Source: Myroides profundi
Lineage (GTDB): Bacteria; Bacteroidota; Bacteroidia; Flavobacteriales; Flavobacteriaceae
Assembly: GCF_000833025.1 (NCBI RefSeq)
Contig: NZ_CP010817.1
Coordinates: 1,984,001-2,048,000 of the forward strand
Direction of reading: 5' to 3'
DNA length: 64,000 bases
The position numbers were made by a program, and so were the translations under genes. The notes below the pieces were generated by a model. It saw only the letters and a list, made by a program, of their open reading frames with translations, was not told the origin of the DNA and ran no database searches. Shown here in pieces: positions 25,956-31,503 of this stretch (positions are counted from its first letter, which is position 1; each line of letters starts with the position of its first letter).

Positions 25956-26984
25956 TTATTCTAGTTTATCCTTAAAAGCATAAATCTGTGCTCTAGAATT
26001 AATATTTAGTTTAAAATAAATTTTACTGATATGATATTTACAGGTATTAATAGAGATAAATAACTCATCAGCTATCTCTTTATTCGTAGCGCCTTCCCAC
26101 AGTAGACTTAGCACTTCCAACTCTCGATCAGTAAGGTTGTACTTATTCTTTAGTTGATATAAAGGCTGATCTTGTATTATTGTTTTTTCTTGTTCTACTT
26201 TATTTGTTTTATCAGCATTTTGGCTCTTTTCATATTCTAGTTGTTTATGGTAGTCTTTTACCATATACATATATTGATATAAATACCTTTTATAAATAGA
26301 ATTTCGCTCGTGTATTTTCTTTACTTCTAATAGTGTTATACAACTAGAACAAATAAGAATAGGAATACCCATTAAGCGCAGTGTAGGCCATACGATGAAT
26401 AACTCATAAAGTGTATCATTAATAGAAGGGGCTAGAATAATGGTACTGGCTGTAATACAAATAATTACGAAAGAGATATAGTTTTTATAATTATACGTAT
26501 GGTTCAGAATGAAGAATAAGTACAATGCTAGGATGGTCAATATAGTAGTAATAGGGTGAATAAAACTATTGCCATGACTCGGCACGATAAATAAATTAGA
26601 TAATAACTCTATCGCTACCAAAGCAAAGAGTACGACAATCCCCGTTTTATAGAATTGTTGTTTGTGTTTAAATCTTAAAAAAGGGTAGGGCAGAAGTATT
26701 AAGAGCACTAGTGATGTACCGATATTCCAGGCTAATAAATAACCGATAGTAGCATGATGATCAGGCATATAGAAGTAAATAATATCCTTGACTAAGAAAC
26801 TAGAGAATATACTTAATTGTAAGAAAAAACTAAAGCTTAGTTTTTTGTACTTAAAAATAATATAAAGTGCAAGAAGTATAACTAGAGAGAGAAATGATAT
26901 CCCATAGTATAGCCCGATAATAATATATTTAGGTGTATCTGTTGCAAAAAAAGGAAATTGATTAAATAATGGTAATGAAATCAT
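25956..26984 (-). CDS. Membrane-anchored LuxR-type transcriptional regulator
   Basis: The N-terminal two thirds of this 342-residue protein contains about seven hydrophobic helices (residues 20-225), like the 7TM sensor modules of Bacteroidota. A linker with heptad character follows, then a LuxR/GerE helix-turn-helix at about residues 275-342 (LTDRELEVLSLLWEGATNKEIADELFIS, TCKYHISKIYFKL). It has no receiver domain, so the regulator is probably activated from the membrane. Signal and targets are unknown. The gene is divergent from the structured-RNA candidate at 27270-27486. Confidence 0.85.
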   Translation of the reverse strand: MISLPLFNQFPFFATDTPKYIIIGLYYGISFLSLVILLALYIIFKYKKLSFSFFLQLSIFSSFLVKDIIYFYMPDHHATIGYLLAWNIGTSLVLLILLPYPFLRFKHKQQFYKTGIVVLFALVAIELLSNLFIVPSHGNSFIHPITTILTILALYLFFILNHTYNYKNYISFVIICITASTIILAPSINDTLYELFIVWPTLRLMGIPILICSSCITLLEVKKIHERNSIYKRYLYQYMYMVKDYHKQLEYEKSQNADKTNKVEQEKTIIQDQPLYQLKNKYNLTDRELEVLSLLWEGATNKEIADELFISINTCKYHISKIYFKLNINSRAQIYAFKDKLE

Positions 26985-27269
26985 ATAAGGTTTATAATGC
27001 TCTATTTTAATTGTTAATATAGAGTGGTAATAAATGTTTAATTAGACCTATTTTTTAGAGAACCTCTCTGCTGATCAAGATGTAAAATTAACTAAAATAT
27101 CAGTGCAGTACTTTCTTAAATCTGTGTAGGTAAATGTTAAAAAAGTATAGCTTTAACTAGGGGTGTAGTTTATTTTACTGATAACCAATATGTTGTTTTG
27201 TGGTTAGGGTCGTTTTTTTATACGGATATATTTAAGAAATAGTAGTACTTTAGCTCTATAACTATTAAA

Positions 27270-27486
27270 AAGGATAGTTAAATTTCTAGTAAAAGATACT
27301 ATTTTTGAATTGTCTTTATTACTAAAAAACTATCCTTATGCACTTACTCCTTTATGTATTGACGAAAAGAGTAAGTGTCCAAAAGTCCCCACAGGTTATA
27401 AAGACCTTAGACAAAATTGACGCAAAAGATACATTTCGTTTGTCTATTCTGAAGCACTTAATCATTTTTTGATTGAGTGCTTTTTT
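27270..27486 (+). ncRNA. Candidate small structured RNA ending in a strong terminator
   Basis: The region is tiled with perfect helices. P1: AAGGATAGTT (27270-27279) with AACTATCCTT (27328-27337), continued inside by TAGTAA/AAGA (27287-27296) with TCTT/TTACTA (27313-27324). P2: CACTTACTC (27341-27349) with GAGTAAGTG (27369-27377). P3: AGGT (27393-27396) with ACCT (27404-27407). P4: TAGACAAA (27408-27415) with TTTGTCTA (27439-27446). Last comes an 11-bp terminator stem (27454-27464 with 27470-27480, one G-T pair) followed by TTTTTT. TACTTTAG near 27246 is a weak -7-like box. A 44-residue ORF (27338-27472) lies inside but runs into the terminator stem. No downstream plus-strand gene exists, so it looks free-standing. 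Confidence 0.55.
27454..27486 (+). terminator. Strong intrinsic terminator of the RNA candidate
   Basis: GCACTTAATCA (27454-27464), loop ttttt, TGATTGAGTGC (27470-27480) with one G-T pair, then TTTTTT. It follows no annotated protein gene on the plus strand. Confidence 0.8.
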
Positions 27487-27534
27487 GATTTCTGAGTAGT
27501 AATAATTTTTACAAGTATAAATAAAGGCAAAAAG

Positions 27535-27567
27535 AAAATCCAGCTTGTCTGTTGACAGCTGGATTTT
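27535..27567. terminator. Terminator beyond the TIM-barrel-like gene
   Basis: AAAATCCAGCT (27535-27545) and AGCTGGATTTT (27557-27567) form an 11-bp stem with an 11-base loop. On the minus strand it follows the stop at 27574 and ends in TTTTCTTTTT. It probably also insulates against transcription from the plus strand. Confidence 0.75.
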
Positions 27568-27573
27568 TCTTAT

Positions 27574-29358
27574 TTAGTTTAAGAGCTCTGTTTCTACTTG
27601 AAGTAAATCTTTAAGTATACTTTCTCGTTCTTGTATAAAGTAAGTATTGTCTTCCTTAAAGAGATTTTTATAGTAAGAGATTCCTTCTAGTAAGTTCTCT
27701 TTTGTCTTCATTAGCTTTTTCAGTTTTGGAGCTGATTGTTCTAATTCTAAAGCTAACTTTTCTTGTCTATAATGATCTAAGTACATTCTTAATTCTTTAA
27801 TAAAGAAATGAGGACGTTCCTTCGTATCGATTACATTATCTCGTCCATAGATATGATTGACCATTTTCTTAAGAGACACTTCCTTCGTGAAGTAAGCAAT
27901 ATTAGGCCCAGGACAGATCGCTACCCCTTGTGCTTCTCCTTTGATAGGCAAGTTAAGCTCCATATAAGACGCATTGGCTAATCCTATACATAGACATGCT
28001 TTCTCTGTTATCTGTTGATACTTCTTATTGTATTCTTCTTGGCTGATACTATTTTTCTCTTGCTCTAGCTTTTCTATTTCAATAGTTTGGTACTTTCTAG
28101 AAGCAGTACACAGACCTTCATTTGAGTAATTCTTATTCAAGGCTAGGTACTTTCTAGGACAAGAGCTACCTGCTTTGTTCTTATTGATTCTCTCTGACTT
28201 AAAGAAGTCGTTAGAAGTTCCTTTAATACTATTAAATGGCACTCCTAAAGGAGAGATATTACTCAAGTATAGATCCTCTTCTTTTGCCTTAGCTAATAAT
28301 TCTCTAGTGGACTGATCTACAGAAGTAGCTTCTGGCACTAATAAGAATGGTGAGCCCCAGCCTACAGAGTCTACCTCGTAATGCTCTAACAGGAACTGAT
28401 GTTCTGCGGCTGTACCTACGCCGCCCTGAGCTGTAACCTTTAAATCAAGAGGAGTAGAAGGAACAAATCTATTCTTTTGTTCTAGAGCTTTCACTAGTAA
28501 GTCATGGGTAGAACTTATTAACTCTGCTTTTCTAGCTTTAAACTCTTCTAATATTACCCCCATTAGATAACCATCTGTAGCGAAGGCATGCCCACCACAG
28601 TTAAGTCCTGACTCTATGCGATACTCAGATACCCATAATCCTTTTTTAGCTAGGAAATTCCCTTGTATCAAGGCAGATCTAAAATCACTTACTTTTAAGA
28701 TGATCTTTTTCTGTAAAGTACAATCAGCAGTTGGATAAAAAGCGTCAAACTCCTCAAAATAGCTAAACAATCTTGGATTCATACCCGCAGATAAGACTAC
28801 GGATGAGTTTAAAGTACTGTTCACAAAGCCTCTTAGGGCAGCATGTGCATCATTATACTCTACCGGTAAGGCTTCTTTTTTAGTAAAGTTCTCTCTATCT
28901 ACCTTAGTCATGATATTGACATCTATATCTCCAGGGGTAAGATAGTGCTCTAGAAGTCCCTTCAGATGGTCTATAGATAGCTTGTCATCTAAGTGTTGCT
29001 GTAGATTCTTTCTAATCTCTGATACAGATGGTAACATATCGATATAATCCTCAACCTCTTTTTTACTTTCTAAGAAAGATGCTTTTAGGTTTTCGAATTT
29101 CCCTTTTACGATGGTATCTAATGTATTTAGATAAGCTGTAATACGCTTGGCTCTAAAGTCCTCTATCTTCTTCGTTATCTCTTGATAAGGCAATTCGAAT
29201 TTCTCACAATAGAACTTGTTCATGCGTTCTATTAATTCATCATCCATCACAGAGATAGTAGAGGAGAAACCATACTGAGCCACTCTCACTGGACTATCAA
29301 TCGTATAGGCCAATCCCATCACGGGAATGTGAAATGAATGTATTGGTTTTAATTTCAT
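27574..29358 (-). CDS. Large cysteine-rich TIM-barrel-like protein of unknown function
   Basis: This 594-residue cytoplasmic protein starts with IPVMGLAYTIDSPVRVAQYG, which resembles the opening of FMN-dependent barrel enzymes. Mid-protein segments ESGLNCGGHAFATDG, TAQGGVGTAAEHQFL and VDSVGWGSPFLLVPEATSV resemble nitronate monooxygenase or glutamate-synthase barrels with phosphate-binding glycines. The C-terminal half has Cys400 (SSCPRKYL), Cys417, Cys455, Cys457 and Cys482 (CPGP), a pattern that could bind an Fe-S cluster. Long helices flank the barrel at residues 60-140 and 530-594. I know no assigned function. It stands alone. Confidence 0.8.
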   Translation of the reverse strand: MKLKPIHSFHIPVMGLAYTIDSPVRVAQYGFSSTISVMDDELIERMNKFYCEKFELPYQEITKKIEDFRAKRITAYLNTLDTIVKGKFENLKASFLESKKEVEDYIDMLPSVSEIRKNLQQHLDDKLSIDHLKGLLEHYLTPGDIDVNIMTKVDRENFTKKEALPVEYNDAHAALRGFVNSTLNSSVVLSAGMNPRLFSYFEEFDAFYPTADCTLQKKIILKVSDFRSALIQGNFLAKKGLWVSEYRIESGLNCGGHAFATDGYLMGVILEEFKARKAELISSTHDLLVKALEQKNRFVPSTPLDLKVTAQGGVGTAAEHQFLLEHYEVDSVGWGSPFLLVPEATSVDQSTRELLAKAKEEDLYLSNISPLGVPFNSIKGTSNDFFKSERINKNKAGSSCPRKYLALNKNYSNEGLCTASRKYQTIEIEKLEQEKNSISQEEYNKKYQQITEKACLCIGLANASYMELNLPIKGEAQGVAICPGPNIAYFTKEVSLKKMVNHIYGRDNVIDTKERPHFFIKELRMYLDHYRQEKLALELEQSAPKLKKLMKTKENLLEGISYYKNLFKEDNTYFIQERESILKDLLQVETELLN

Positions 29359-30046: not shown

Positions 30047-30942
30047 GTGAAGAGAAAGGTAATAATAGAATGTCCTACTAATTTAGGGCTTGCAAAGAGT
30101 ACTTATGCTAAAGAACCAGGTGTTAGGTTTTTGCCTACTTGGCTAGAGAAATACGGATTATATAGTATTATAAATCCAGATAAAATATATCGTATAGAAG
30201 CACCAGCGTATTCGATGAACCTTGATGAAAATACACAGGTTAGAAATGCTGATGAAATCATAGAGTATGCTATAAAGCAAGCGAATATTGTTGAAGAGGA
30301 GTTAAATAAAATTCTTTTTTGATTGTATTAGGTGGAGATTGTAGTATTCTTATCGGTAGTGCGCTTGCCTTAAAGAGAAAAGGGCGTTATGGGCTGTTCT
30401 TTCTAGATGGGCATACAGATTATGTATTACCAGGACAATTGGGGGTACATGGGGCAGCAGGTATGGATTTGGCTATAGTATGTGGTGCTGGTCATGAACG
30501 TCTTACTAATATTCAAAACAACAAGCCTTATATTGAAGAAGAATACGTGTTTTGTGTAGGGAATAGAGAGTATGATGAAGAATATGAGAGGCCTATAAAA
30601 GACTCTAAAGTTGTTTATTATCCTTTGTCTAAATTAAGAAATTATGGTATAAAGAGAGTTGTATCAGATTTTTTGATGCGCGTCGAAGAGTATGATTTAG
30701 AGGGGTACTTTATTCATTTAGATGTGGATGTACTAAATGATAAGATAATGCCTGCGGTAGACTGTAGGCAAGAAGATGGATTGAATTATAAGGAGTTAAA
30801 AGAAATACTTACACCTTTAGTTAAAGATAAGAGATGTGTGGGATTGGAGATCGCAATACTAGATCCAGACTTAGATCCTTTAGGTGTTTATACTAAAGAG
30901 TTTATTGAAAATGTAAAAGATATTATAGAAACGTCTCTTTAA
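30047..30942 (+). pseudogene. Arginase/agmatinase-family gene split by a frameshift
   Basis: Two overlapping frames encode one arginase-family protein. The first (GTG 30047 to TGA 30322, 91 residues) ends just before the region that should read into LGGD. The second (from TTG 30319 to 30942) carries the metal-binding motifs GGDCSILIG, FLDGHTDY, HLDVDVLND and LEIAILDPDLD. The break is at a six-T run (cttttttga): one added T would join the frames as ..NKILFLIVLGGD. It may be a true mutation, a sequencing homopolymer error, or slippage at TTT-TGA. If whole, it would be a ureohydrolase of about 298 residues, acting on arginine, agmatine or a related guanidino compound. It is 2.4 kb upstream of the speA coding region. 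Confidence 0.8.
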
Positions 30943-30956
30943 GAAAGGGGGGCTTG

Positions 30957-31283
30957 TTATTTTATTAGTTTAAGCAACTCTTTAATCTCACTATCACTTA
31001 TTGAGTCGTATTCACTTTTGTCATAAATAGAAAGCAAATAGATAGTATCATTTTCGATTACAAGATGTGTAATAACTCTAGCTCCGCCACTTTTACCTTT
31101 ACCTTTAGATTTTATAGCTATGCGTACTTTATAACAATTATTAGCTAATGCAGTTCCGAGCATGGGATTTTGTTGTAATTCTTCAATTAAAAGAGAAAGA
31201 TCTTCTTTCAATGAATGGTATTTCTTTCCAAGCTTTTTAGCTTCTTTTAGAAACTTAGGAGTTGCAATAATATTATAACTCAT
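30957..31283 (-). CDS. RelE/ParE-family toxin
   Basis: This 108-residue basic protein has the ParE/RelE toxin pattern: SYNIIATPKFLKEAKKLGKKYHSL at the N terminus, then NCYKVRIAIKSKGKGKSGGARVITHLV in the central sheet and LLSIYDKSEYDSISDSEIKELL at the end. RelE members cleave ribosome-bound mRNA, and ParE members inhibit gyrase; the sequence does not decide between them. It overlaps the antitoxin gene by 11 bases in the usual antitoxin-first order. Confidence 0.87.
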   Translation of the reverse strand: MSYNIIATPKFLKEAKKLGKKYHSLKEDLSLLIEELQQNPMLGTALANNCYKVRIAIKSKGKGKSGGARVITHLVIENDTIYLLSIYDKSEYDSISDSEIKELLKLIK

Positions 31284-31503
31284 CCAATAAATCTTTTGCA
31301 GAGATCCCTTTAAGTTTTCCCTCTTTTATTAAATTAAGTTCTGTTACAGCTTGTTTTAAATTTGTTTTAATATCTTCTTTTGAATCTGTGTCCTCAGTAT
31401 TTTGTTTTGTAATTTTTATTTTTAAAGCCTTAGCAAAAGCCTTAAGAGCTTTAGCTTCTTCAGGTGTAGAAGGCTCTACGATATATACATCATTAGTTAT
31501 CAT
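31273..31503 (-). CDS. Antitoxin partner of the RelE/ParE toxin (DUF2683-like)
   Basis: This 76-residue acidic protein precedes and overlaps the toxin gene. Its N-terminal part (VEPSTPEEAKALKAFAKALKI) and C-terminal helix (AVTELNLIKEGKLKGISAKDLLDEL) match the small antitoxins commonly paired with such toxins in Bacteroidota. The N terminus is expected to bind the operator and the C terminus the toxin. No operator is recognisable by eye. Confidence 0.82.
   Translation of the reverse strand: MITNDVYIVEPSTPEEAKALKAFAKALKIKITKQNTEDTDSKEDIKTNLKQAVTELNLIKEGKLKGISAKDLLDEL

Follow-up and report, generated by a model that had tools for sequence, protein, structure and literature searches.

Positions 27260–27490 on the plus strand of the window (the whole 64,000-nucleotide stretch of Myroides profundi contig NZ_CP010817.1 that was analyzed) encode what is, judging from its predicted folds, a real structured RNA, for which the evolutionary support is good, though it comes from two sequences. 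We consider it probable that this is an independently transcribed, terminator-ended and Hfq-independent small RNA (sRNA), known to date from the Myroides odoratimimus group alone, with three stable hairpins, which would pair with mRNAs and might be controlled by a LuxR-type protein. The original prediction, an undescribed free-standing structured RNA, was supported by the absence of an Rfam match, by compensatory changes in P2 and the terminator and by the lack of conservation of the only open reading frame (ORF) that overlaps it. Our verdict is that the RNA represents a new family of an ordinary kind.

The RNA lies in an intergenic region with a gene of the minus strand on either side. The features of the locus, in window coordinates, are as follows.

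25956–26984, minus strand: divergent 5′ neighbor, gene for a 342-residue protein, hydrophobic in its N-terminal half, with a LuxR (GerE) DNA-binding domain at its C terminus
27246–27253, plus strand: candidate −7 box TACTTTAG, differing from TAnnTTTG at one position; M. odoratimimus has TAATTTAG
27258–27487, plus strand: proposed small RNA of about 225–230 nt; fold z −6.66, conservation above the flanks
27270–27337, plus strand: predicted P1 hairpin; outer helix 27270–27279/27328–27337, 10 bp, with a large apical loop
27287–27291/27320–27324, plus strand: predicted P1 inner helix, UAGUA/UACUA
27312–27319, plus strand: GUCUUUAU of the P1 loop region, which would form the 5′ side of a candidate pseudoknot
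27340–27378, plus strand: predicted P2 hairpin; 27340–27349/27369–27378, 10 bp including an outer G-U
27382–27392, plus strand: stretch AAAGUCCCCAC, unpaired in both predicted folds and identical in both copies
27393–27397/27403–27407, plus strand: P3, a possible helix of 5 bp including one G-U
27398–27405, plus strand: 3′ side of the candidate pseudoknot, AUAAAGAC, in the linker before P4
27408–27446, plus strand: predicted P4 hairpin; UAGACAAA/UUUGUCUA at 27408–27415/27439–27446, 8 bp
27453–27487, plus strand: predicted intrinsic terminator; stem 27453–27464/27470–27481, followed by a T run
27574–29358, minus strand: convergent 3′ neighbor, gene for a conserved 594-residue protein of no family

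The minimum free energy (MFE) of 27260–27490 on the plus strand was −61.3 kcal/mol, compared with a mean of −34.8 for shuffled sequences (z −6.66), and none of 200 shuffles was as good. Without the terminator, the RNA still reached −41.1 (z −4.17, 0 of 200 shuffles as good). When 150-base windows of the plus strand were scanned over the intergenic region, with 60 shuffles each, in both the window genome and M. odoratimimus, only those overlapping the RNA fell strongly below their shuffles in either genome. The letters agreed with the helix positions originally given for P1, P2, P3, P4 and the terminator. The inner P1 helix proved weaker than it had been described, and it carries a one-sided change in the relative.

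The perfect helices fold equally well on the reverse strand (z −6.75, 0 of 200 shuffles as good), so that folding by itself leaves the strand undecided. The region 26950–27600 contains a single terminator-like site, where 0.2 would be expected on both strands together; this site is on the plus strand, to which the RNA was therefore assigned. At the other end, the flavobacterial −7 consensus is TAnnTTTG, at −12 to −5, according to the available text of PMC9723704. If the candidate box TACTTTAG were used, the 5′ end of the RNA would fall near 27258–27262. The box is a weak candidate because one-mismatch sites are common nearby, with five in all, TACTTTAG and four others, in 27101–27275, and no TTG for a −33 element was seen by eye at a fitting distance from it.

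The original prediction had no protein gene downstream on the same strand, which was confirmed: the following gene is on the minus strand, and a cis-regulatory leader or riboswitch was rejected on this ground. No plus-strand ORF of 40 codons or more starts between the RNA and 27808, and the RNA is thus hardly a leader; the next plus-strand ORF of at least 40 codons (27808–27981) lies inside the antisense gene for the 594-residue protein. The RNA has its own terminator, and its only same-strand overlap is with an unconserved ORF of 44 codons.

M. odoratimimus CCUG 39352 has one copy of the RNA, at the same place. Identity between the two genomes is 61% upstream of the RNA (27146–27250, 64 of 105 columns) versus 85% over 27251–27487 (203 of 239), and 63% downstream (27488–27535, 31 of 49); the conserved block thus starts near 27250 and ends at the terminator, with the drop after 27487. 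The second copy is nearly as stable as the first (MFE −59.8). When the window RNA was randomly mutated with the same numbers of changes, 2 of 1000 variants reached the stability of the M. odoratimimus copy, and with random bases at only the 27 substituted columns, 13 of 1000 did.

The individual helices differ in how they have changed. The outer 10 bp of P1 and the P4 stem are without changes in M. odoratimimus, and the apical part of P4 is altered. P2, the part least conserved in sequence (27 of 45 columns), has gone from CACUUACUC/GAGUAAGUG in the window to UGUUU(U)ACUC/GAGUAAACA, with three double changes (C-G to U-A, A-U to G-C and C-G to U-A), one bulged U and the loss of the outer G-U. 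These changes were taken from the folds and a pairwise alignment, as MAFFT alignments misplace P2 by about one column. The reading with three double changes depends on the bulged U, which is also placed by RNAfold; counted by strict columns with the bulge disallowed, one pair of P2 is changed on both sides and three are broken. The terminator shows one double change, U-A to C-G, and the inner P1 stem a one-sided G to C change opposite a C. Taken alone, the terminator was matched in stability by 7 of 5000 mutated versions, and P2 by 228 of 5000, the latter being only modestly better than chance. Covariation in P1, P2 and P4 had been proposed as a check; compensatory changes were found in P2, and also in the terminator, with P1 and P4 being invariant. 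Together with the conservation above the immediate flanks, the compensatory changes point to selection on the folded form, in a comparison of two sequences from close relatives.

P3 has its pairing letters at the predicted place, but two of its five pairs are lost in the relative, and it is therefore probably not a real helix. The P1 loop may instead form a pseudoknot with 27398–27405: GUCUUUAU and AUAAAGAC could form 8 bp; when both stretches were shuffled, 110 of 5000 trials gave as many. Both strands are invariant in the two genomes, and since neither varies, the pseudoknot is put forward as a hypothesis only. Such an alternative pairing could explain both the break in P3 and the one-sided change in the inner P1 stem. 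Two direct repeats were noted within the RNA (33 nt, 76%; ATTGACGAAAA/ATTGACGCAAA). The 5′ side of P2 (27330–27362) and that of the terminator (27444–27476) are 76% identical over 33 bases, as if one had been derived from the other. By eye, this likeness is weaker in M. odoratimimus.

The RNA is single-copy in its own genome (E 0.001). In seven Myroides genomes, a DNA search gave E 5e-76 in M. odoratimimus and 0.009 or weaker in the other six, and a covariance model gave 4.7e-57 and 0.04 or weaker, respectively. Elsewhere in the Myroides genomes, apart from the two copies, the model produced weak matches at E 0.03 or weaker, and the four that were inspected (G000, G421 and two in G427) were hairpins at the ends of other genes. 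A DNA search of 60 relatives at E 0.001 yielded two matches, one in the own genome and one of 33 bases, resembling a terminator, in G035. A further 30 genomes drawn around M. odoratimimus added none, the one positive of 31 being M. odoratimimus itself.

Sampling by GTDB genus gave the own genome alone, both with the covariance model at E 1e-5 (1 of 398 genomes) and with a DNA search of a second, overlapping sampling at E 1e-8 (1 of 396). Only 2 to 5 candidates were scored per genome in these samplings, as in the more lenient DNA search below, and weak homologues could therefore be missed. A DNA search of 398 genus genomes, apparently the same sampling as that used with the model, produced matches of some kind in 394 at E values of up to 1; among the matches listed, all except that in the own genome were partial, covering up to about 85 of 241 bases at E 7e-7 or weaker. 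Five of these partial matches (L084, L085, L087, L089 and L090) were inspected at their 3′ ends: in four, the match was a terminator-like hairpin next to an unrelated gene, and the remaining one did not resemble the RNA. The scores of 30–35 bits that L084, L085, L089 and L090 obtained with the RNA model (E 7e-6 to 1e-4, in a small search) were put down to the terminator-like hairpin. No direct homologue was found in plasmids and phages at E 0.01. In viral contigs, two stretches contained an 18-base core pattern, but the RNA model recognized neither of them at E 10 or better, and a longer pattern occurred in none.

Both flanking genes, for the LuxR protein and for the 594-residue protein, occupy the same places in M. 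marinus and Myroides N17-2, and the interval between them holds no sequence similar to the RNA. Nor did this interval show a comparable fold on the plus strand, apart from one low window in N17-2 (z −4.64) at the end of the 594-residue gene, where a terminator-like hairpin sits. On the best reading, the RNA is lineage-restricted and known so far only in the M. odoratimimus group.

The GerE domain of the 342-residue protein was matched in Pfam at E 2.3e-18; its membrane part was judged from the sequence. The RNA starts about 275 bp from the start of this gene and is directed away from it, a divergent arrangement that suggests LuxR control. By analogy with known pairs of sRNA and regulator, it is plausible that the LuxR-type protein controls the RNA. 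Upstream of the LuxR gene, 150 of the 158 columns of 26988–27145 (95%) are identical in M. odoratimimus, and 27070–27129 is fully so, making this block more conserved than the RNA itself. No unusual folding was detected on either strand of 26985–27150 (z −0.75 and −1.78). The block may serve as promoter or operator for the LuxR gene and perhaps for the RNA as well.

On the other side, the 594-residue protein matched nothing in Pfam and nothing significantly in NCBIfam. It matched 95 loci, of which the best 80 are mostly in Bacteroidota, and the best among the matches listed was in M. odoratimimus CCUG 39352, at 98% identity, which places the window in the M. odoratimimus group. Hairpin arms at 27535–27545/27557–27567, directly 3′ of this gene, look like its own terminator. 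Beyond it, an arginase-family protein is encoded in two overlapping plus-strand frames, 30047–30322 (91 residues) and 30319–30942 (207 residues). The 207-residue frame matches Arginase (E 2.1e-21) from profile position 87 onward and the 91-residue frame has no Pfam match; the gene thus looks split by a frameshift. Two small overlapping genes on the minus strand at 30957–31503, for a 76-residue protein (DUF2683, below cut-off) ahead of a RelE-type protein (Pfam RelE, E 1.2e-07), look like a toxin–antitoxin pair.

From the sequence, we infer transcription of the RNA, its control by the LuxR protein and its action by base-pairing. The three stable hairpins (P1, P2 and P4) and the terminator, perhaps with a pseudoknot joining the P1 loop to the linker before P4, would shield the RNA and display the conserved C-rich linker GUCCCCAC and the adjoining single-stranded bases. 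These bases would pair with messenger RNAs without Hfq, and the membrane LuxR regulator would turn the RNA on or off. A search for Hfq (PF17209, E up to 0.01) was positive in 5 of 14 control genomes and negative in both Myroides genomes to which it was applied.

The unpaired C-rich stretch at 27382–27392 is the natural candidate for a seed. With up to two mismatches, its complement showed no enrichment over a control consisting of the reversed pattern, in either the own genome (174 versus 174 places; 86+88 versus 89+85) or M. odoratimimus (195 versus 193; 99+96 versus 101+92). Thirteen one-mismatch sites lie outside the RNA, four in the own genome and nine in M. odoratimimus. One site is common to both genomes (L151 and L160); it is in the sense orientation, 390 bases inside a coding sequence that, by eye, looks like that of a sensor histidine kinase. 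For three sites, a possible gene start is close by in a single genome (L149 from the own genome; L144 and L154 from M. odoratimimus), and none of the 13 is a site near a gene start that both genomes share. A bolder version of the proposal is that the RNA represents a new family with a pseudoknotted core, born recently in one Myroides lineage as the effector of a membrane-bound LuxR regulator, linking a membrane signal in one step to a chaperone-free sRNA; we regard this as decidedly doubtful.

Several other explanations were weighed against the sRNA. The 44-codon ORF (27338–27472, plus strand) could be a short protein gene, or the RNA the mRNA of a small peptide with a hairpin leader. The frame is open in the window, and 23 codons that are in register are open in M. 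odoratimimus too. Against this, M. odoratimimus lacks a start codon at the corresponding position and the frame shifts there, four of the five differences in the in-register codons are nonsynonymous and one synonymous, the ORF reaches into the terminator stem, and it has no Pfam match. With no conserved start, a shifted frame and mostly nonsynonymous changes, the ORF does not encode a conserved peptide, in agreement with the original preference for an RNA over a peptide, and we see hardly any chance of a short gene. Equally improbable is a known class, such as 6S RNA, tracrRNA, SRP RNA or tmRNA, that has drifted past recognition, even if the length and the hairpin-rich shape fit loosely. The absence of membership in any known family, as first proposed, was borne out in that Rfam gave no match at gathering score in the whole 64-kb window; a lenient scan of 27000–27600 returned 14 matches with best E of 0.09–0.11, each at least 20 bits under its family cut-off, and the 3232 bases around the second copy gave nothing at E 1 or better. 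The idea that the RNA is 6S-like did not survive: the window has no 6S-Flavo match at gathering score, and 6S-Flavo (RF01685) was excluded because the genome's own copy is elsewhere, at C1:939119-939226 (90.5 bits). A tracrRNA of a type II CRISPR system was rejected since no Cas9 (TIGR01865, E 0.001) was found in the own genome, in a search whose sensitivity was limited, with matches in 4 of 14 control genomes and none over the cut-off. ARAGORN found no tRNA or tmRNA in the window.

The occurrence of the RNA in only two close genomes, with nothing similar in the M. marinus and N17-2 interval, would also suit a non-functional relic whose fold comes from inverted repeats, such as a DNA hairpin or a mobile element in decay. 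This is very unlikely, as the RNA is single-copy in its own genome (E 0.001), has compensatory changes and is more conserved than its immediate flanks. Another view is that the RNA is structured in order to bind a protein, as a sponge or an enzyme co-factor, and does not pair with mRNAs. It is very stable and mostly paired, P1 is invariant with a possible pseudoknot, the C-rich stretch lacks an enriched complement, and the mRNA-pairing sRNA GibS of Bacteroides is described as largely unstructured in the available text of PMC7366714, all of which would be consistent with protein binding. However, there is no conserved repeated binding motif, because the two direct repeats are not kept in M. odoratimimus, and both neighboring proteins persist without the RNA in two other Myroides. 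We therefore hold protein binding to be unlikely and retain the mRNA-pairing sRNA as the preferred reading.

In E. coli, OxyR controls OxyS and GcvA controls GcvB, with the sRNA gene divergent from that of its regulator. The Myroides RNA shares the divergent orientation, but the putative regulator is of another family, and M. marinus and N17-2 keep the LuxR gene without having the RNA. Like 6S-Flavo, it is a free-standing structured RNA of Bacteroidota, but 6S-Flavo has a separate copy in the genome and the Myroides RNA had no match at gathering score; 6S-Flavo and Flavo-1 are described in PMC2864571. GibS of Bacteroides thetaiotaomicron is likewise an intergenic sRNA in a group without obvious Hfq, but differs, as it is described, in being largely unstructured with an extended 5′ seed of 30–50 nt, whereas the Myroides RNA is mostly paired (PMC7366714).

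Another close parallel comes from Flavobacterium psychrophilum, for which the available text of PMC9723704 reports 85 newly described independent RNAs, including Rfp18. These independent transcribed regions have a median length of 176 bp, are typically noncoding and in several cases have strong predicted folds; without Rfp18, the levels of two metalloprotease mRNAs drop in stationary phase. Rfp18 and its kin are, like the Myroides RNA, flavobacterial intergenic RNAs, but wide conservation within the genus is reported for Rfp18, whereas the Myroides RNA was found in the own genome only among the 398 and 396 sampled; the two were compared by description. For Myroides itself, the titles and abstract beginnings of the literature on small or noncoding RNAs and RNA-seq contained no description of this RNA, and the genome report of Myroides A21 gives six predicted noncoding RNAs, unnamed in the text available (PMC4358391).

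Less is known about the sRNAs of Bacteroidota than about those of model bacteria, and well-supported cases help show how sRNAs act without that chaperone, since no Hfq was found in Myroides here. The Myroides RNA comes with probable boundaries, compensatory changes in its fold and a candidate for its regulator. A lineage-specific sRNA is unsurprising as such, given the 85 newly described independent RNAs of F. psychrophilum alone (PMC9723704). An sRNA that is present in one lineage and unseen at the same place in near relatives nevertheless bears on the origin of sRNAs.
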